DNA of 49,212 nucleotides from positions 1 through 49,212 of the forward strand of contig JASJCL010000061.1 of assembly GCA_030066015.1 (NCBI GenBank). Direction: 5' to 3'. The notes beneath the pieces are model-generated. The model was given only the letters and a program-made list of their open reading frames with translations, had not been told where the DNA came from and made no database searches. Every line of letters starts with the position of its first letter. Positions within the stretch are counted from its first letter, which is position 1. A program made the translations under genes and the position numbers. This document shows positions 12,669 through 39,989 of the stretch, in pieces. Source of the DNA: Desulfosarcinaceae bacterium (GTDB lineage: Bacteria; Desulfobacterota; Desulfobacteria; Desulfobacterales; Desulfosarcinaceae).

Positions 12669-12786
12669 GCGGCCGGGCGCCACTTTGCGCCGCGATTCCA
12701 AATCGGCTATGGTGGTACCGCCCGCCGTGCGCTCGCCGCCCGAGCGCCGGCGAAGCGGGACCAATCTGCTGCTCGAGTGGAACATT

Positions 12787-13701
12787 ATGGCGACATCGAC
12801 CTTTCCGTGGCGCTCCTACCTGCTGCTCACCTGTACCGTCCTCTTCTGGTCGGGCAACTTTGTGCTCGCCCGCGGCATCCGTGAGCTGATCCCCCCGGTG
12901 AGCCTCAATTTTTGGCGTTGGACCGGGGCCCTCATCCTGATTCTACCCGTCGCCCTGCCCCGCTTGCATCGTCAGCGCCACCTCCTGCGCCGCCACTGGC
13001 GCTGGCTGGCCCTTATGAGCCTCCCCAGTATCGTTTTCTTCAACACCTTCATCTACGCGGCCCTCCAATCCGCTTCAGCCACCAACACCGTCCTGGTCAA
13101 CGCGACGACCCCCATCTTCATCGTGTTGTTGGCCAGAGGCCTCTTCGGAGAGCGCCTCACGCCCCGACAATCGACGGGAGTGCTGGTATCCCTGGGCGGC
13201 TTGCTCTTCATCATCAGCCGCGGTGATTGGGCCGTCCTGGGTCAGTTCAGCTTCGTCACGGGCGACCTCTGGACCTTGGGCGCCTCTCTCTCCTGGGCCA
13301 TATATAGTGTCCAGTTGCGACAACGCCCTGCGGGCATCGATCCCTTGGTCTTCCTCACAGCCATCATCGCCTTGGGAGTGGTGCTGCTGCTGCCCGTTTA
13401 CTTGGCCGAATGGTATCTGCGCGGCGGCTTCCCGGTAACGCCGGCCAGCCTGGCCAGCATCGCCTACGTATGCGTCTTCCCGTCGCTCTTGGCCTATCTC
13501 TTTTGGAACCGAGGGGTATCGCGAGTGGGGCCTGCCAGGGCCGGCATCTTCATGCACCTCATGCCGGTTTTCGGCATCTTGCTGGCAACCCTCTTTTTGG
13601 ATGAGGTGCTTCGCCGCTATCATCTGGCCGGCATTCTACTGATCTTTACCGGTATCGCCATGACCACCTATCCGGTGGGCACTCCCCGGCGCACGCCTTA
13701 G
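12787..13701 (+). CDS. EamA/DMT-superfamily transporter
   Basis: 304 residues from ATG 12787 (MATSTFPWRS). An upstream in-frame ATG would add an Arg/Pro-rich tail unlike the family. About ten membrane helices form two EamA halves: the first begins LLLTCTVLFWSGNFVLARG, the second with GDLWTLGASLSWAIYSV. Conserved features such as NTVLVNATTPIFIVLLA and FLDEVL are typical of drug/metabolite exporters. Substrate cannot be inferred. The stop overlaps the stop of the convergent msrA gene (shared TTAG at 13698-13701), so the pair has no terminator space between them. Confidence 0.9.
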   Translation: MATSTFPWRSYLLLTCTVLFWSGNFVLARGIRELIPPVSLNFWRWTGALILILPVALPRLHRQRHLLRRHWRWLALMSLPSIVFFNTFIYAALQSASATNTVLVNATTPIFIVLLARGLFGERLTPRQSTGVLVSLGGLLFIISRGDWAVLGQFSFVTGDLWTLGASLSWAIYSVQLRQRPAGIDPLVFLTAIIALGVVLLLPVYLAEWYLRGGFPVTPASLASIAYVCVFPSLLAYLFWNRGVSRVGPARAGIFMHLMPVFGILLATLFLDEVLRRYHLAGILLIFTGIAMTTYPVGTPRRTP

Positions 13702-14498
13702 CGATCGCGACGCTGCACGAGCGCGACCAGCTGTCTGCGGCTCTCCTCGCGCAATCCCAATCCATCGATCTCGGCCTGCAGTTGGGACCAGCTGCCGTAA
13801 CCCCCCAGATAGCCGTTTAGGCGGGTTGCGGCCGTGGAGTCGGTGAGGGCTCTCGCTCTGGGGTAGAAGCGGGTCAGATCGCGCAGAAATTCGGGGCGGC
13901 TGCGCAGGCGGTATTTTTGATGGTACCCCTCCGCCCGGTAGAAGGTTTTTAGCGGTTCGATGGCGGTGCGGACGTTGCGGTTCCTTGCGTGGGCGATCGC
14001 ATTGCGGTGACGCTCAGCGGCCGCGCGCTGTTCATCGTCATGGTAGAACAATGCGTTGCGATACTGGCGCGACCAACTGCGGCTGAAGGGTTTATGCGCC
14101 TTCCAGAAGATCGCCAGGAGCGTGTCGTAGGGGATCTGGGCAGGGTCGAAATCGATCTGCAGCGCCTCGCTGTGGTCCCCCAGGTCATGATAGGTGGGGT
14201 CCTTCAAGTCCCCGCCGGTGTACCCGACACGGGTGCGAATCACGCCCTTCAAACTCCCGAACTGGGAGTCGGGTCCCCAAAATCAGCCCAGGGCAAAGGT
14301 GGCCGTTTCGAAATCGCCGGGCGCGGCCAGGTCGATCGCCGGAGGTGTCGGGGACGGCGTGTCGCCCGCCGCAGCGGTGTCACCGCTGCCGGCGGCAAAG
14401 ACGGGGCTGGCGGTGCTGGTCGGTTTACATCCTTGTAGGAGGGTGGTCAATCCAGCCGATCCCAAGGCACAGTGGGAAAGAAAGGTGCGTCTGTTCAT
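13698..14498 (-). CDS. msrA: Selenocysteine-containing peptide-methionine (S)-S-oxide reductase, Tat/lipoprotein type (UGA at 14283-14285)
   Basis: One frame of 266 codons if the UGA at 14285-14283 is read as selenocysteine. ATG 14498 has a strong GGAGGAG site. The N-terminus NRRTFLS is a Tat-like twin-arginine motif, and LLQGC (Cys24) a probable lipobox. After a Pro/Ala/Thr linker comes TFALG-U72-FWG, exactly the MsrA active-site motif GCFWG with UGA in place of the catalytic Cys codon. The rest is canonical MsrA: GVIRTRVGYTGG, PTYHDLGDHSEALQ, FWKAHKP, QYRNALFYHDDEQ, AEGYHQKY. No cysteine occurs after U72, so there is no resolving Cys. A SECIS-like hairpin follows at the expected distance. 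The enzyme should reduce methionine-S-sulfoxide in periplasmic proteins. The alternative, a pseudogene or sequencing error, would require a stop to hit exactly the catalytic codon with everything else intact. Confidence 0.9.
14253..14269 (-). promoter_or_regulatory. SECIS-like hairpin after msrA UGA
   Basis: On the msrA mRNA, ACUCCC (14269-14264) pairs with GGGAGU (14258-14253) around the loop AGUUC. A further G-U pair can extend the base of the stem. The stem starts 13 nt after the UGA. Known bacterial SECIS elements are short hairpins about 11 nt after UGA with G and U in the loop, and this fits. It would recruit SelB with selenocysteyl-tRNA. A bulged U like that of E. coli fdhF is not obvious. 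Confidence 0.75.
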
Positions 14499-14652
14499 GG
14501 TGGTCTCCTCCGGTTTTGGCAGCATCATGGGTAAACAGCGCCATTGATCCCAGAATAAGCATCGCTCCCACATAGGAAACCGCCAAAACCGTAAAGATTG
14601 TGTAAACCCGGTCCCGCTTATCGCTGCTCGGCGAGCAATGCTCGGTAAGCAT
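14425..14652 (-). CDS. Possible small membrane protein overlapping msrA start
   Basis: A 75-codon frame starts at ATG 14652 and overlaps the first 74 bases of msrA in another frame. Its first 45 residues look protein-like: a polar start (LTEHCSPSSDKRDR), then a good membrane helix (VYTIFTVLAVSYVGAML and following). There is no clear ribosome site, and the tail within msrA looks arbitrary. It may be a genuine small membrane protein, a degraded remnant or chance. Confidence 0.25.
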   Translation of the reverse strand: MLTEHCSPSSDKRDRVYTIFTVLAVSYVGAMLILGSMALFTHDAAKTGGDHHEQTHLSFPLCLGIGWIDHPPTRM

Positions 14653-14956
14653 GCCAAAAGCGAAGCAGAACTGGAACGCCGACCGAACCGTATGGATTGG
14701 AACCTAGCGGCGGTATGCGCGTCGCCGGCGACAGGGCCTTTTTTGGTAAAGGCGAAGCGTCTATGATGCAGCGCTTCGCTGTCAGTGGAGCGGCAATTGC
14801 TTCTGAAGTGCCCGGGGCACCGCAAAAACGCGTGCAACGTGTTGTTGAGACTTGAGTATTTAAAAAACATTAATAATATTATGAAATTAGTGGGGTTCGG
14901 CAGATAACCATACTGAACGAAGCATCCAATTGCTCCGGAGGGCATGGGCTCAACAG
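14499..14956. other. Divergent intergenic region, msrA and histidine kinase
   Basis: 458 bases. Overlapping palindromes at 14626-14644 (GCTCG-G-CGAGC and CGAGCA-A-TGCTCG) are framed by GCTTA (14616-14620) and TAAGC (14646-14650), a possible cruciform or leader hairpin on the msrA side. The right third (about 14850-14890) is strongly AT-rich and includes the likely kinase promoter. A doubtful small membrane frame is listed separately. Confidence 0.55.
14852..14879 (+). promoter_or_regulatory. Candidate promoter of the sensor kinase gene
   Basis: TTGAGT (14852-14857) and TAATAT (14874-14879) are separated by 16 bases in the most AT-rich part of the gap. Each matches four of six sigma-70 consensus bases. 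An alternative -10 is TATTAT at 14877-14882. Confidence 0.35.
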
Positions 14957-16063
14957 ATGCACACCATATCTGAAGAAAAAGCCAGTCTTGTCGAGAAGAT
15001 TCGCATTTTAGAATGTTTGTACCAGATCTCCGAATTGGTGGTCGAGGACGCAGATGGTTTTGAAAACACCATTCAGCGCATCGTTGATTTGGTGCCCCGG
15101 GCATTCGAATATCCCGAGAAGGTGGCCGCGGCCATCGATCTGAAGGAGCGCCGATACCAAACACCTGGCTTTGAAACTGCGCAGGGCACCGTCCAACACC
15201 CGATTGTCGTCAATGGTGAGGGAAGGGGTTCCCTTGCGATAGGCTGTATTGAAGAGGGCGCCTTTGCCCTGAGTACGGAGGGGACCTGTAGCATTGCGGA
15301 AAACAATTTGATGGCCGCAGTTGCGAAGAAGGTCGCCTATATGATTGATCGCAAAGAGGCCATCGACAGAAAGCAACTTTTGGAGGAGCAGTTGATGCAT
15401 GCGGATCGCTTGTCGACAATCGGTCAACTGGCTGCCGGCATCGCGCATGAATTGAACAATCCACTTGGAGATATTCTGGGGTTTGCGGAATTGGCCGCCA
15501 ACACGCCGGATTTGCAAGAAGAGATTTACAAAGACTTGGTTAAAATTGTCAAATCAACCCTGTATGCCAGGGAAATCATCAAAAAGGTATTGTATTTCAG
15601 CCGGCAGACACATCCACGGGAGGCAACGGCCGATTTGAATCAGTTAATCGGTGAGTGGATGGATTTTCTCGAATCGCGGTGTGCCAAAAATGGCATTCAG
15701 GTGGCATTACAGCTGGATGACAACTTGCCCATCGTCAACGGAGACCCAGCCCAACTGAACCAGGTGCTCATCAATGTGGTGGTCAATGCCATCCAAGCCA
15801 TGCCAGATGGCGGCATCCTGACCATTCAAACGCGGCGCAAGGAAAACCAAGTTTCACTCGTCGTTCAGGATACCGGCAATGGGATCGAAAAAGCGGTCAA
15901 AGACAACATTTTTCTTCCTTTTTTCACTACCAAGGAGGTCGATCAGGGGACCGGTCTGGGATTGTCTGTGGTTCATGGCATCGTCCAGGAACACGGTGGC
16001 AGCATCGAGGTGGCAAGCCAGGTCGGCCAGGGTACGATTTTTACGATTTGGTTGCCCGTTTAG
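14957..16063 (+). CDS. Cytoplasmic sensor histidine kinase
   Basis: 368 residues from ATG 14957; a TTG start nine codons upstream is the alternative. There are no membrane helices. Residues about 1-135 form a GAF-like sensor region (FENTIQRIVDLVPRAFEYPE, PIVVNGEGRGSLAIGC). A helix then leads to the HisKA domain with phospho-acceptor His164 in AAGIAHELNNPLG. HATPase motifs follow: the N box NVVVNAIQAMPDGG, G1 DTGNGIE, and G2 GTGLGLSVVHGI. The gene lies 19 bases before an NtrC-type regulator, its obvious cognate partner. The signal sensed is unknown; location just upstream of the Mrp operon suggests ion or pH stress (inference). Confidence 0.92.
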   Translation: MHTISEEKASLVEKIRILECLYQISELVVEDADGFENTIQRIVDLVPRAFEYPEKVAAAIDLKERRYQTPGFETAQGTVQHPIVVNGEGRGSLAIGCIEEGAFALSTEGTCSIAENNLMAAVAKKVAYMIDRKEAIDRKQLLEEQLMHADRLSTIGQLAAGIAHELNNPLGDILGFAELAANTPDLQEEIYKDLVKIVKSTLYAREIIKKVLYFSRQTHPREATADLNQLIGEWMDFLESRCAKNGIQVALQLDDNLPIVNGDPAQLNQVLINVVVNAIQAMPDGGILTIQTRRKENQVSLVVQDTGNGIEKAVKDNIFLPFFTTKEVDQGTGLGLSVVHGIVQEHGGSIEVASQVGQGTIFTIWLPV

Positions 16064-16082: not shown

Positions 16083-17429
16083 ATGAGCGCGGCGAATGAA
16101 CAGCAACATCTGATTCTAGCGGTTGATGACAACCGGAACGCGCTGGAGATCATCCGGCGCACGCTGAGCAAATCTGGGTATCGCGTGATGACGTGTGAAG
16201 GGGTTCCCGATGCCGTCGAGGTCATGATCAAACACCATATCGATCTGGTCATAACGGATCTCAAAATGCCCAAGCACGACGGACTGGAACTGGTCCGATA
16301 CGTCAGCGAGAATTTCTTTGATACCGCTGTCATCATGGTGACCGCCTATCCGTCCATCGAGGGTGCGGTTGAGGCGATAAAGTCGGGTGCCGATGATTTT
16401 CTGGCCAAACCGTATACTGCTGAAGAGTTGACCAGCACTGTCCAGCAGGCCTTGGAACGGTTGGCCACTCAGCGGTCGGCCCAGGATAAATTGGAACTTG
16501 AGGCGACGTTCGGTATTGTCGGCACCAGCAAACCGATGAAGAATGTGTTTCGTCGTATCGCCAAAGCGGCGGCAATGAAGGCAAATGTGTTGATATCGGG
16601 CGAGAGCGGCACGGGTAAGGAACTTGTCGCACGGGCCATCCATTACAGCAGCCCCTGCTCATCGGCGACATTTGTTCCCGTAAACTGCACCGCGATCCCG
16701 GACAGCCTCGTCGAAAGTGAGCTGTTCGGCCACGAGAAGGGCGCCTTCACTGGGGCCAACGCTTTGCGCAAAGGTTTTTTTGAGGTGGCATCGGGCGGTA
16801 CCGTGTTTCTGGATGAGATCGGCGATGCGAGCCAAAGCCTGCAGGCGAAATTGCTCCGTGTGTTGCAGAACAAGGAGATCATCAAGGTTGGCTCAAGCCA
16901 GGTCGTCAAGGTCGATGCCCGCATCGTGGCGGCCACCAATAAAGATTTGATGGATTTGGTTCAGAGGGGATCGTTCCGGGAGGATCTGTACTACCGCATC
17001 AACGTCATCGATATCCCCATACCACCGCTGCGTGAGCGGGAGGAAGACATCCCTTTGCTGATTCAGCACTGCGCGGCGCAGCTATGCAAGGAGATTGGCG
17101 GTGAACCACTGACCTTCTCGGACCGCGTCCTGGCGGCGATGGCCGACTATTCGTGGCCGGGAAATGTAAGAGAGCTCGAGAACCTCATTCAAAAATTTTT
17201 CGTCACGGTGGACAACCATCGCGTCGACATTACAGACCTGCCTGCGCAGATGCGATTTTCAATCCATCATGGGAAGGGATTGAACCGCTCTTTGGCCGCT
17301 GTGGAAAGTGAGCACATTCTAAATGTCGTCGCGAGTGTCGGCGGCAACAAGACCCAGGCGGCCAGAATTCTTCAAATAGACCGCAAGACGCTGCGAGAGA
17401 AATTAAAGCGCCTGGCGAATGATGGTTAA
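16083..17429 (+). CDS. NtrC-family sigma-54 response regulator
   Basis: 448 residues in three domains. The receiver (1-120) has acidic pocket VDD and phospho-acceptor Asp59 in LVITDLKMP, with KP at the end. The AAA+ domain (about 145-375) has Walker A GESGTGKE, the sigma-54 contact motif GAFTGA (220-225), Walker B GGTVFLDEI and the arginine-finger region REDLYYRINV. The C-terminal Fis-type helix-turn-helix is NKTQAARILQIDRKTLREKLKRL. All key residues are intact, so it should activate sigma-54 promoters when phosphorylated by the kinase 19 bases upstream. Ribosome site GAGAGGGA precedes ATG 16083. The Mrp operon starts 275 bases downstream, but no clear -24/-12 element was found before it. Confidence 0.95.
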   Translation: MSAANEQQHLILAVDDNRNALEIIRRTLSKSGYRVMTCEGVPDAVEVMIKHHIDLVITDLKMPKHDGLELVRYVSENFFDTAVIMVTAYPSIEGAVEAIKSGADDFLAKPYTAEELTSTVQQALERLATQRSAQDKLELEATFGIVGTSKPMKNVFRRIAKAAAMKANVLISGESGTGKELVARAIHYSSPCSSATFVPVNCTAIPDSLVESELFGHEKGAFTGANALRKGFFEVASGGTVFLDEIGDASQSLQAKLLRVLQNKEIIKVGSSQVVKVDARIVAATNKDLMDLVQRGSFREDLYYRINVIDIPIPPLREREEDIPLLIQHCAAQLCKEIGGEPLTFSDRVLAAMADYSWPGNVRELENLIQKFFVTVDNHRVDITDLPAQMRFSIHHGKGLNRSLAAVESEHILNVVASVGGNKTQAARILQIDRKTLREKLKRLANDG

Positions 17430-35911: not shown

Positions 35912-35981
35912 GTAAGCAATGGTGGATGAACCGGCCCCCGGCGGCAGGTTCCTCCGGCAACCCCCAATCGAGGAGGAGCAG

Positions 35982-37724
35982 ATGAAGACCGCGATTCGTT
36001 TACTCACCGTCGTACTGAGCCTCGCCCTGGCCGCAACGGCCGTGGCAGGCCCCAAAAACCCAGACACCTTCATTAAGGCCTCGGCCTCCACCATCCGCAC
36101 CCTGGACCCGGCGGCGGCCTATGACATGGCCTCCATGCAGAAGGTGGAGAACATCTACGACAAGCTCATCGCCTTCGACGGCCCCAACCTGGACAAGTTC
36201 ATCCCCGTGCTGGCCACCGAGGTGCCCAGCTTGGCCAACGGTGGCATCAGTGCCGACGGCACCACCTACACCTTCACGGTCCGCAAGGGCGTCAAATTCG
36301 AAAAGGGCGGCGATCTGACGGCCAGCGACGTGGCCTACAGCATCCAGCGGGTCATGGTCCTCGACCAGAGCGGCGGTCCGGCCTGGATGCTGCTGGAGGC
36401 GCTCACCGGCGAGGGCAGCACCACTGACAAGGATGGAAAGCTCAAAGCCGGCATCATGGAGAAGATCCTCGCCTCGGTTTCGGCCGAGGGGGAGCGTGTG
36501 GTCTTCCGCTTGCCGCGACCCTATCCGCCTTTCATGGGGATCATGGCCAAATCCTGGGCCTCGGTGGTGGACAAGGAGTGGGTGATCGAGCAGGGCGGTT
36601 GGGATGGGCGCCTCGCCAACGCCGCCGACTACAACAGCCCAGCCCCGGGGAAGGAAACCCTGCACAAGATTTGCAACGGGTCCGGGCCATACAAACTGGC
36701 CCACTGGGATCCCTCCGCCCAGTTCGTCTTCGAGCGCAATGGCGCCTACTGGGGGGCGGCCCCCAAACTGAACCGGGCGGTGTTCAAGTACGTGCCCGAG
36801 TGGAGCACCCGCAAACTCATGCTTCAGAACGGCGACGTGGATTCGGCCACCGTCGATGATCAGTATGTGGCCGAGGCGTCGGCCATGAAGGGCGTCAAGA
36901 GTTACAAGATCCCCCAGCTGGCGGTGAGCGTGGCCATGTTCTGCCGCAAGATCGACCCCACCGGCAACCCCTACATCGGCAGCGGCAAGCTCGATGGCGC
37001 CGGCATCCCCATCGATTTCTTCGCCGACATCCATGTGCGGCGGGCCTTCTGGCACTGCTTCGACAGTGAAATCTACGCCAAAGACGTCCTCCAGGGAATC
37101 AGCGTCGTCCCCAGCAACCCCATCGTTCAGGGACTGCCCCACGCCGTGAAGACGCCGGTCTACGCCTTCGACCTGGAGAAGGCGGCCGAGAGCATGAAGC
37201 GGGCTTGGGGCGGCGAGGTGTGGCAGAAGGGTTTCAAAATGACCATCCTGCACAACACCGGTAACGCCATGCGCGAAGCGGCCGCCCATATGCTGGCCGA
37301 GAACGTCATGCGCCTCAATCCCAAGTTCCAGGTCGAGGTGGCCCACATGTCCTGGCGCGACTATCTGAGCGCCTATCGTCAGTTCCGCTTCCCCATCGCC
37401 GTCATCTCCTGGGTGGCCGACTACCCAGATCCCCACAACTTCGCCCACCCCTTCATGCACAGCGAGGGCAGCCACGGGCGCTACATGGGCTCGCCCAGTC
37501 CAGAGACCGACAAACTGGTCGAGGCCGGCGTGGCCACCACCGATCCGGCCAAGCGGGCCGAGATCTATGCCCAGCTCTCCAGTCGATGGTACGAAGAGGC
37601 CATGGGGATCCCCGTCTACCAGTCCACCGAGATGCGCTTCTATCGCGAATGGGTGCACGGCTTCGTAGGCAATCCCCTGGATGCCGGCGACACCGAGTGG
37701 CTCTGGCGGTTGCACAAGCAGTAG
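35982..37724 (+). CDS. ABC transporter substrate-binding protein, peptide/nickel (SBP_bac_5) family
   Basis: 580 residues from ATG 35982, with AGGAGGAG directly upstream. A signal peptide is clear (KTAIRLLTVVLSLALAATAVAG). The mature protein has the family 5 layout: RTLDPAAAYDMASMQKVENIYDKL, PVLATEVPSLANGGISADGTTYTFTVRKGVKFEKG, NGSGPYKLAHWDPSAQFVFERNGAYWG, DIHVRRAFWHCFDSEIYAKDVLQG, ISWVADYPDPHNFAHPFMHS. Such proteins deliver oligopeptides to an ABC importer in the inner membrane. No permease or ATPase genes lie in the window, so the importer must be encoded elsewhere. The next gene, a muropeptide-processing fusion, suggests the ligand is a murein peptide (inference). Confidence 0.92.
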   Translation: MKTAIRLLTVVLSLALAATAVAGPKNPDTFIKASASTIRTLDPAAAYDMASMQKVENIYDKLIAFDGPNLDKFIPVLATEVPSLANGGISADGTTYTFTVRKGVKFEKGGDLTASDVAYSIQRVMVLDQSGGPAWMLLEALTGEGSTTDKDGKLKAGIMEKILASVSAEGERVVFRLPRPYPPFMGIMAKSWASVVDKEWVIEQGGWDGRLANAADYNSPAPGKETLHKICNGSGPYKLAHWDPSAQFVFERNGAYWGAAPKLNRAVFKYVPEWSTRKLMLQNGDVDSATVDDQYVAEASAMKGVKSYKIPQLAVSVAMFCRKIDPTGNPYIGSGKLDGAGIPIDFFADIHVRRAFWHCFDSEIYAKDVLQGISVVPSNPIVQGLPHAVKTPVYAFDLEKAAESMKRAWGGEVWQKGFKMTILHNTGNAMREAAAHMLAENVMRLNPKFQVEVAHMSWRDYLSAYRQFRFPIAVISWVADYPDPHNFAHPFMHSEGSHGRYMGSPSPETDKLVEAGVATTDPAKRAEIYAQLSSRWYEEAMGIPVYQSTEMRFYREWVHGFVGNPLDAGDTEWLWRLHKQ

Positions 37725-37731
37725 GATTCCC

Positions 37732-37762
37732 CCCGGGGGCTTCCGGGATGGAGGCCCCCGGG
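37732..37762. terminator. Hairpin after peptide-binding protein gene
   Basis: CCCGGGGGC (37732-37740) and GCCCCCGGG (37754-37762) form a perfect 9-bp stem with a 13-nt loop, beginning 8 bases after the stop. No T-tract. It may end transcription or protect the 3' end, reducing read-through into the epimerase fusion gene. Confidence 0.55.
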
Positions 37763-37861
37763 TGAGCCGTGTCGTCACGGGACACGCAACCGCCCTCCCG
37801 ATCACCTCATCAAACCGCTGATGCGTCCATTCGGCCAACCCCGAATCCACGCAGCGGCGCT

Positions 37862-37873
37862 TTGATGCATCAA
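37862..37873. promoter_or_regulatory. 12-bp palindrome before epimerase fusion gene
   Basis: TTGATGCATCAA is a perfect palindrome 17 bases upstream of the ATG at 37890. It could be an operator, though a 12-bp palindrome can occur by chance. Confidence 0.25.
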
Positions 37874-37889
37874 CGAAAGCCAATCAGCG

Positions 37890-39989
37890 ATGCGCCACCC
37901 GCCGGAAACACTCTCCTGGGAGAAGATCGCGGTCGAGATTCAGGTCCCCTTTCACCTGGCCCACGGGATCTGCCAGCGACGGACGGTCCATTGGATCCGT
38001 CTGCCCCGCGATGCCGGCTGGGGAGAGGCGACCATCCCGCCCTATTACCGGATCCCGGAAGCGGAGATGGTGGCGCTCTGGTCGACAAAGGCCGCGGCCG
38101 CGGCGGGACCCCTCCCGGAGCACCCGGAGGAGATCCCCGCCTGGGTGGGGAGGGAAGGACCGGCGCCGGCCCGCTGCGCCCTTGACATGGCCCTCCACGA
38201 CCGCCTGGCCCGCCGCCTGGGCATCCCCCTGTTCGCCCTGCTGGGTCTTCCGCGGCCCCGGCCGGTGACCACCGCCTTCACCATCCCCATTGCCGCCCCG
38301 GAAAAGATGGCAGCCATGGCGGCCCGTGCCAGCGCGTTCGCGCGCTTGAAGATCAAGCTGGGCAGCGATAATGACCCGGCCCGGCTGGCCGCCATACGCC
38401 GCGCAAGACCCGACGCCCGCCTCATCGTAGATGCCAACGCCGGCTGGTCGCCCGAACGGGCCGTGGCCTGCATCACCGAACTGATCCCTTACGGCATCGA
38501 GTTGGTGGAGCAGCCGGTGGCGGCCGACGATCCAGCGGGTATGGGCGCGGTGCAACAGCGGATCGACGTGCCGGTGATGGCCGACGAGTCGGTCTGCAAC
38601 TTGGATGATCTGGAACGCCTGGCGGCAGCGGGGATTCGGGCCGTCAATCTCAAACTCCAGAAGGTCGGCGGCATCGCCCCCTGCCTGGAGCTGATCGTGA
38701 GAGCCCGCCAGCTCGGGATGCAGGTCATGCTGGGCTGCATGATCGAGACCTCGCTCGGGGTGACGGCCATGGCCCACCTGAGCCCCCTGGCGGACTGGAT
38801 CGATCTGGACGCCCCCCTCCTGGTGGTGCACGACCCCTTTGCCGGGGTGCGATACGACGGGGCCCGCATCCATTTGCCGGAGGGGCCGGGCATCGGCATC
38901 CGAACCCGCTCGCGCGAGGAATCCGATGTCGCGGCCACGCTGGCAAGATGGGGCCAAACCCGCTACCAGGACCGGCGCGTCACCTGTTTCGATGTTGGCC
39001 TGCAAGCAGACGGGGAGGGCAAGGTGCGGGTGAGCGGCGCGGTGCTCACCCCCGATCAGGCCCAGGCGGTGACCCATCTCGCCGATACCCGGGGCCTAGC
39101 CGTGGCGCTGCAGACCCGCTTGGGCGAGGCAACCCCCCGCGCCTGGGTGAGGCGGGTGGTCACCGATCTGCGCCGCGCGCCCACCAGCCTCTCTGAGCGC
39201 CTCAACCAGGCCCTGCTGGGGGATGCGGTGCGCATCCTGGAGGTTCACCAAACCCGCGAAGAATGGTGCCATGTGCAGTTGGAGCGGGATGGTTATCTGG
39301 GCTGGCTCCAGCAGGCCGCCCTCAGCCCGTCAACGGATGCCCATCGACCGGAGAGGGCCACCCATCTGGTGCGCACCGCCTGGGCGCTGGGATACGCCAA
39401 CCCCACTGCGGATAGCCGCTGCCTGGGTCGGCTCCCCATGGGGCTGCAGGTGGCGGTGACGGCGCAGGCCCACGGCTTCTGCCGCCTGCACCTGACCGGC
39501 GGCGCCAGCTGGTGGGTCGCCAGCGGAGACCTCCTGGCCCTGGCGGCGCGTCCCTCCCCCACAGCGGAGGGAATTCAAGCCTGCCTGGAGCTGGTGGCGC
39601 CCCTCACGGGCGTCCCCTACCTCTGGGGCGGCTGCACCCCTTACGGCTATGATTGTTCGGGATTCACCCAGATGTTCTGGGCCCTCATGGGCATTCGTCT
39701 GATGCGGGACGCCGATCAGCAATTCGACCAGGGACGGCCCGTAGAGATGGGCCGCGAGGGTCAGGGGTGCCGGCCCGGGGATCTGATCTTCTTCGGCAAG
39801 GAAGGGGCACCGGCGGCGGGCATCGCGCACCAGATCCCCCACGTGGCCCTCAGCCTGGGGGGCAGCCGGTATCTGCACGCCAACGGTACCTCCTGGAATC
39901 TGCGGCACAACAGCCTGGATCCGAAGGCCGTGGATTACCGAGAAGATCTGCACGCCGACCTCATGGGGGCGCGGCGCTATCGCCGGTGA
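37890..39989 (+). CDS. Fused L-Ala-D/L-Glu (dipeptide) epimerase and NlpC/P60 endopeptidase (YkfB-YkfC fusion)
   Basis: 699 residues, no signal peptide, so cytoplasmic. Residues about 10-345 are an enolase-superfamily dipeptide epimerase: acid/base Lys154/Lys156 in LKIKLG, metal ligands Asp181 (VDANAGW), Glu207 (VEQP) and Asp232 (ADES), and Lys255 (NLKLQKVGG). Residues about 350-560 look like SH3-type domains. Residues about 565-699 are NlpC/P60: catalytic Cys589 in GYDCSGFTQ, His651 and His663 (LHANG), and the GVPYLWGGC entry. In Bacillus these activities are separate adjacent genes, ykfB and ykfC. Together they would cut gamma-D-Glu-diamino acid bonds and epimerise the released L-Ala-D-Glu. 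The end overlaps the convergent D-aminoacylase gene by 29 bases. No strong ribosome site precedes ATG 37890. Confidence 0.88.
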   Translation: MRHPPETLSWEKIAVEIQVPFHLAHGICQRRTVHWIRLPRDAGWGEATIPPYYRIPEAEMVALWSTKAAAAAGPLPEHPEEIPAWVGREGPAPARCALDMALHDRLARRLGIPLFALLGLPRPRPVTTAFTIPIAAPEKMAAMAARASAFARLKIKLGSDNDPARLAAIRRARPDARLIVDANAGWSPERAVACITELIPYGIELVEQPVAADDPAGMGAVQQRIDVPVMADESVCNLDDLERLAAAGIRAVNLKLQKVGGIAPCLELIVRARQLGMQVMLGCMIETSLGVTAMAHLSPLADWIDLDAPLLVVHDPFAGVRYDGARIHLPEGPGIGIRTRSREESDVAATLARWGQTRYQDRRVTCFDVGLQADGEGKVRVSGAVLTPDQAQAVTHLADTRGLAVALQTRLGEATPRAWVRRVVTDLRRAPTSLSERLNQALLGDAVRILEVHQTREEWCHVQLERDGYLGWLQQAALSPSTDAHRPERATHLVRTAWALGYANPTADSRCLGRLPMGLQVAVTAQAHGFCRLHLTGGASWWVASGDLLALAARPSPTAEGIQACLELVAPLTGVPYLWGGCTPYGYDCSGFTQMFWALMGIRLMRDADQQFDQGRPVEMGREGQGCRPGDLIFFGKEGAPAAGIAHQIPHVALSLGGSRYLHANGTSWNLRHNSLDPKAVDYREDLHADLMGARRYRR

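Follow-up and report, generated by a model that had tools for sequence, protein, structure and literature searches.

Introduction

The gene described here raises two questions: whether a TGA at the codon for the catalytic residue of a methionine-S-sulfoxide reductase (MsrA) ends the protein or is read as selenocysteine (Sec), and where in the cell the complete enzyme would work. It lies in a window of 49,212 nucleotides, the whole stretch analyzed, from a Desulfosarcinaceae bacterium (contig JASJCL010000061.1, assembly GCA_030066015.1). With a probability of roughly 0.93, it encodes a helical-domain MsrA of the 1-Cys/1-Sec type, most likely made as an exported lipoprotein that faces the periplasm.

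The closest characterized enzyme is CoMsrA of Clostridium (Alkaliphilus) oremlandii OhILAs (PDB 4LWJ, 4LWK, 4U66), which has the same catalytic and helical domains as the window protein, and like it has Sec at the catalytic site and no resolving Cys. According to excerpts of the published work, the Sec form of CoMsrA exceeds the Cys form 20-fold in activity, CoMsrA is resolved by glutaredoxin (PMC4479559), and the helical domain is essential (PMC4333827). A 2006 table, part of PMC1794560, lists MsrA as a selenoprotein of Syntrophobacter fumaroxidans (Deltaproteobacteria); this enzyme, likewise deltaproteobacterial, is known here from the table entry alone, which does not give its N-terminus. 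We take the window gene for a probably exported variant of helical-domain selenoprotein MsrA, an enzyme type already known.

The gene and its product

The initial annotation had proposed that two frames, split only by a TGA, join as one complete MsrA. On the minus strand they do so, giving 266 residues with both domains over cut-off (Table 1), and the codon falls exactly where that annotation placed it, on the catalytic Cys of GCFWG (codon 72, 14285-14283), in agreement with the homologs. Translation of 14498-13698 meets this single TGA and no other stop before the TAA, and the context of the UGA is TFALG-U-FWGPDSQFG.

Table 1. Coordinates of the Sec-MsrA gene and its parts in the window
Feature	Position	Strand	Basis and remarks
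Complete Sec-MsrA gene	14498->13698	minus	Translation; 266 codons, codon 72 = UGA, plus TAA
Ribosome-binding site GGAGGAG	14505..14511	minus	6 nt upstream of ATG
Putative export signal, residues 1-24 (MNRRTFLSHCALGSAGLTTLLQGC)	14427..14498	minus	Pattern matches; twin-Arg RRTFL plus lipobox LLQGC, Cys24
Linker, residues 25-61	14316..14426	minus	Separates signal from catalytic domain
MsrA catalytic domain PMSR, residues 65-199	13902..14306	minus	Profile match and structure alignment
In-frame TGA, codon 72, catalytic Cys position of GCFWG = selenocysteine	14283..14285	minus	Translation and homologs
bSECIS-type hairpin	14253..14269	minus	6-bp stem, loop AGUUC, loop 19 nt past UGA
C-terminal helical domain, residues 200-266	13701..13901	minus	PF20939 match on 218-250 (13749-13847); model

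Both domains were recognized by profile, PMSR (PF01625) at 138.6 bits and MsrA_helical (PF20939) at 35.7 bits, each against a cut-off of 23.7, and TIGR00401 (msrA) was matched at 122.2 bits, above its cut-off of 108.1. The active site GUFWG occupies residues 71-75, and Glu111 is invariant in 9 aligned homologs. By sequence, the closest solved structures are forms of the C. oremlandii enzyme (E 4e-54). A model of the window protein (mean pLDDT 82.8, residues 1-46 below 50) was aligned with 4LWK over 205 residues with 42% identity, at an rmsd of 2.8 and a Z of 28.3; the match joins residues 62-266 to 6-210 and so runs to the last residue, helical domain included. Ordinary MsrAs reached Z 18.7 or lower over approximately 140-155 residues. 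In the match with 4LWK, U72 corresponds to residue 16 of CoMsrA and Glu111 to Glu55, which serves that enzyme as proton donor according to part of PMC4479559. The window protein has no Cys after U72, as is also true of 70 of the 94 homologs in the set described below. From its sequence the gene almost certainly encodes a selenoprotein MsrA, with a predicted function.

A convergent gene for an EamA transporter (12685-13701) overlaps the stop codon of the Sec-MsrA gene with its own at 13698-13701. On the upstream side, and divergent, are a histidine kinase (14930-16063) and then a sigma-54-type response regulator (16083-17429). With these convergent and divergent neighbors the Sec-MsrA gene is probably transcribed alone, as its own unit. 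Rfam, at gathering thresholds, and ARAGORN gave no matches in the window. Another candidate selenoprotein frame there, with one TGA (minus strand, 36000-39077), was rejected as a probable shadow frame, since no Pfam family matches either half and the plus strand opposite has ORFs of its own (35919-37724 and 37890-39989).

UGA at the catalytic codon in relatives

The initial annotation had expected Cys or Sec at codon 72 in an alignment with homologs; both were found. Homologs were picked by score alone from 146 genomes, the bacterium's own included. Full-length ones came from 26 other genomes and fragments from two, and each contains a single TGA, which in 26 of the 26 full-length genes is at the catalytic codon. 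A sample of the order (389 genomes, again with its own) contained 53 copies in 52 genomes at E<=1e-55. TGA was present in 52, in all of which the catalytic site was verified codon by codon, and the remaining copy begins beyond that site. In the phylum sample (395 genomes) copies were found in 28 genomes, 28 of 28 with TGA, L197 (see below) being the one with two; the same threshold of E<=1e-55 applied to order and phylum, and divergent Cys members could have been missed by it. A scan over named genomes gave, among its best 80 loci, 18 with TGA, 61 with Cys and 1 without a readable site, counts to be read with the knowledge that one of the two patterns used requires Cys. The TGA loci among these 80 belong to Desulfosarcina, a 'Deltaproteobacteria' bin, Planctomycetota, Actinomycetota, Chloroflexota, Acidobacteriota and Bacillota, and Halanaerobium and haloarchaea are among the sources of Cys members of this type. 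TGA/Cys pairs at the catalytic codon exist in other organisms. Genome G029, from the family to which the window genome belongs, carries its gene at the same coordinates as Desulfosarcina alkanivorans PL12, and the window would thus derive from a relative of Desulfosarcina.

A further set of 94 genes served for the hairpin hold-out and for the localization and start counts. It was built from TGA genes, so that the TGAs in it carry no weight as evidence; the counts free of this selection are the score-picked, order, phylum and best-80 ones. Left out of the 94 were L053, which has lost its N-terminal part; L054 and L055, which are ordinary MsrAs; fragments in G018 and G127; L056, the same gene as L028; L068, with an unreadable site; and L197, which has TGA at the site and a second TGA two codons later. 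In L197 (genome G737) this second TGA is at the Trp of GCFWG, and may be an error, decay or something odder.

Several loci in the collection deserve record. Genome G388 carries two Sec-MsrA copies (L174 and L175), both with TGA at the site. At L034 (G045, 370-795 and 1495-2229) the Sec-MsrA gene is preceded on the same strand by an ordinary MsrA-like match, and at L066 (7083-7880), in a Dehalococcoidia genome, the next gene after Sec-MsrA encodes a heliorhodopsin.

Selenocysteine machinery

The genome of the window (G000, 5.73 Mb in 155 contigs) was searched for the Sec machinery, as the initial annotation had suggested, and all four components are present: SelA (608 bits), SelB (363 bits), SelD (370 bits, with an in-frame TGA of its own) and tRNA-Sec with anticodon tca (73.4 bits, gathering score 47). 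Together with the UGA in 26 of 26 relatives and the conserved hairpin described below, this machinery strongly supports the reading of the gene as a selenoprotein MsrA.

Co-occurrence with SelB was tried as a test and dropped. At E<=1e-60 SelB was found in 129 of the 146 genomes, 26 of 29 with a TGA gene vs. 103 of 117 without, and being nearly universal it does not discriminate. At that threshold it was not detected in three draft genomes that carry the TGA gene (G065, G128, G145). Two SelB-like matches each were seen at E<=1e-60 in G008, G014, G039, G042, G045, G046, G052, G076, G077, G110, G124, G137 and G144, and these pairs are perhaps duplicated or divergent selenocysteine elongation factors.

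The hairpin downstream of the UGA

A bacterial SECIS element was sought, as the initial annotation had advised, and one was found that fits the bSECIS model, covaries among Sec genes and recurs in genes held out. The model, as set out in part of PMC13188914, has a loop of 3-9 nt, a stem of 4-16 bp, G in one of the first two loop positions, a spacing of 16-37 nt and an MFE of -7.5 kcal/mol or lower. In the window the hairpin ACUCCC-AGUUC-GGGAGU starts 13 nt past the UGA; its 5-nt loop has G in second place, and at -8.6 kcal/mol it agrees with the model on every point.

The weight of this evidence is in the family rather than in the window stretch alone. Taken by itself, the 51-nt window stretch folds no better than its synonymous shuffles (z 0.12), 25% of which contain a fitting hairpin. 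The 17-nt hairpin gave z -3.3 against 200 dinucleotide shuffles, for a segment that had been chosen as a hairpin. Over the family, with the loop limit set at 3-14 nt, the bSECIS rule fitted 37 of 44 Sec genes, leaving 7 unfit, where synonymous shuffles predict 17.4; among Cys genes it fitted 25 of 61, against 21.5 expected. In the 44 Sec genes 96.8% of stem cells are paired, compared with 78.6 (sd 2.0) after shuffling, and the covariation score is 0.444 compared with 0.119; neither value was reached in 500 shuffles. Two weaker measures, the pairs changed on both sides (3) and the further pair types (9), were reached by 12 and 35 of 500 shuffles, respectively.

The two outer pairs follow the codon at the active site. 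Pair 18-32 is kept in 41/44 Sec genes, 5/53 ordinary Cys genes and 1/8 helical-type Cys genes, and pair 19-31 in 40/44, 15/53 and 1/8; the helical-type Cys genes, eight in all, were assigned manually. The Sec genes have AU, CG, UA, GC and UG at 18-32, and UA, GC, UG and GU at 19-31. Among 50 held-out Sec genes the pairs recur in 40 and 43, respectively. Since columns 19 and 31 each fall on the first position of a codon, the amino acids at two sites would appear to change together as the stem is kept.

These results bear on two other accounts of the TGA. That a Cys codon became TGA in a pseudogene, or was misread as TGA, is hardly credible: TGA is one base away from TGC and TGT, and another MsrA, an ordinary one with no stop in it, is encoded in the genome, but the same codon is TGA in 26/26 relatives picked by score alone and 28/28 in the phylum, the window gene has no further stop, and the covarying hairpin goes with TGA and is not kept with Cys. 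It is also very improbable that UGA acts mainly as a stop, the usual product being an exported stub of 71 residues and the full-length enzyme appearing only when selenium is plentiful. At the UGA of any selenoprotein gene termination competes with Sec insertion, and the ordinary MsrA could cover the function; against this, the domain downstream and the hairpin are conserved over the family, and the full-length protein is therefore what selection keeps.

Probable export of the protein

The initial annotation had described a ribosome site and a signal sequence. The GGAGGAG is there, 6 nt before the ATG. For the signal the motifs RRTFL and LLQGC stand (the latter within SAGLTTLLQGC), in the right order and spacing for the Tat (RR-x-FL) and lipobox (+1 Cys) patterns, while the hydrophobic stretch scored 1.16 in a crude scan, below the cut-off of 1.45. 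The motifs suggest that the window protein is a Tat-exported lipoprotein.

In the same scan an N-terminal hydrophobic segment was found in 84 of the 94 homologs, 38 of those with a lipobox, and no signal in 10, window gene included. The scan reaches up to 125 codons before Sec with the start codon unfixed, and some of these hits (e.g., L030) may precede the real start. Within the phylum of the window the segment is present in 75 of 77 genes, the exceptions being L041 and the window gene. The supposition in the initial annotation that a Tat/lipoprotein-targeted Sec-MsrA would be unusual is not upheld by this count. In the tree the window gene is nearest to L027 (support 98/63), which begins MNQRRFFLK and also has AASC.

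Divergence by codon position was considered as a test for selection on the signal and was dropped. In most of 22 close pairs third positions in the signal region are little above first and second positions, without a clear excess, which was seen in a few pairs (L037-L048, L156-L157, L182-L188); selection on the signal amino acids is therefore not generally supported.

It remains to weigh a selenoprotein MsrA that stays in the cytosol because its N-terminal stretch does not function in export. The low hydrophobicity of the window sequence favors it, as do the existence of homologs without a signal by scan (10/94, including this one) and the lack of an N-terminal extension in CoMsrA, whose active-site residue is number 16 of 209; in the window protein Sec is preceded by 71 residues, which include the Tat-like/lipobox segment. 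We consider it rather unlikely, in view of the ordered and correctly spaced RRTFL and LLQGC, the RRFFLK and AASC of L027, and the hydrophobic segment in 75/77 genes of the phylum. On this sequence evidence export of the window protein is likely.

A possible second start in homologs

Many homologs have, between signal and domain, an in-frame ATG after a sequence resembling AGGAGG or AAGGAG. In codons -45 to -15 before Sec the 94 genes have 112 scored ATGs, of which 43 follow a ribosome site, defined as 5 nt or more at a spacing of 4-10; one ATG lacking upstream sequence was skipped. Synonymous shuffles predict 20.1 such ATGs (sd 3.1, maximum 31 in 1000). Inside the domain 11 of 241 ATGs have a site, and out of frame in the same stretch 1 of 71. 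Exactly at codon -33 there are 36 ATGs, 25 of them with a site, where shuffles give 11.4 and at most 18. An internal start with a site is present in 43/94 genes, that is in 39 of the 84 that bear a signal and in 4 that do not, in which it may be the sole start; thinning of near-duplicates leaves 28 of 66. The signal-less L060 begins at the same codon as the internal ATG. Members with such an ATG near codon -33 include L027, L028, L031, L037-L039, L044-L049, L057, L058, L063, L065 and L075, among others.

These counts are consistent with a family in which one gene yields a long exported form and a short cytosolic form, both with Sec and with different reductants, a proposal to which we give even odds. 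As selection on the signal amino acids is not generally supported, a given member may use only one of the two starts. In the window gene, codons -45 to -12 before Sec contain no ATG, GTG or TTG, though its nearest relative, L027, has such a codon at -35. If there are two isoforms in the family, the window gene may be one that lacks the internal start and is committed to export.

Proposed catalysis and reduction in the envelope

The following sequence of events is proposed. SelB and Sec-tRNA would decode UGA72 as Sec. The RR signal would direct export, probably by Tat, and Cys24 would be lipidated, anchoring the enzyme so that it faces the periplasm. Sec72 would attack methionine-S-sulfoxide, with Glu111 as proton donor, to form a selenenic acid. 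Because the mature protein lacks any Cys besides the one that bears the lipid, resolution would have to come from a thiol supplied from outside or from a second molecule. The likely role would be repair of envelope proteins when the anaerobe meets oxidants.

CoMsrA relies on glutaredoxin, which one would not expect outside the cytoplasm. The genome of the window has a gene for a CcdA-like membrane protein, with a gene for a thioredoxin-like protein (hydrophobic N-terminus, WCKYC) just downstream, and this pair is a candidate electron path to Sec-MsrA, though the donor is a guess. No redox gene was found among the window ORFs scanned. Gene neighborhoods were tried as a hint to the donor and set aside: ten neighbor ORFs of seven homologs included no redox partner, one of them having no Pfam match. 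A Sec glutaredoxin was also rejected, as none of the three glutaredoxin matches in the genome has an internal stop.

Repair of methionine sulfoxide outside the cytoplasm, as proposed for the window protein, has precedents in pneumococcal SpMsrAB2, with its CcdA/Etrx system, and in MsrPQ of Escherichia coli. In the portions of PMC3914529 consulted here, the surface enzyme SpMsrAB2 receives its electrons from CcdA-Etrx pairs, in which thioredoxin-like lipoproteins work with CcdA, donors that resemble the CcdA-like/thioredoxin-like pair of the window genome; SpMsrAB2 forms an intramolecular disulfide and is thus not of the 1-Cys type, unlike the window protein. MsrP, in an excerpt of PMC6316033, is a different enzyme, which takes electrons from the respiratory chain. 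Selenium is not mentioned for SpMsrAB2 or MsrP in those portions of the two papers.

Implications

No description of an exported Sec-MsrA or of a dual-start bacterial MsrA turned up in the searches made of open-access PubMed Central texts. An export signal on Sec-MsrA goes unmentioned in the parts of PMC13188914, PMC9312934, PMC2398784 and PMC12013277 that were available, the last of which does not contain the word MsrA. Selenoproteins with extracytoplasmic names, a multihaem cytochrome and an outer-membrane barrel family, are listed in part of PMC13188914, so that export of a selenoprotein is in itself nothing new.

The window gene illustrates clearly how an entire enzyme would be missed if UGA were taken for a stop. 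Whether one bacterial gene can serve two compartments could be tested simply with the internal start seen in about half of the signal-bearing homologs. If the reading of the window gene as an exported selenoprotein is true, selenium-based methionine repair sits in the envelope of sulfate-reducer relatives, beyond the reach of glutaredoxin, and the re-reduction there of a Sec enzyme without a resolving Cys becomes a direct question, for which the genome provides a candidate donor pair.
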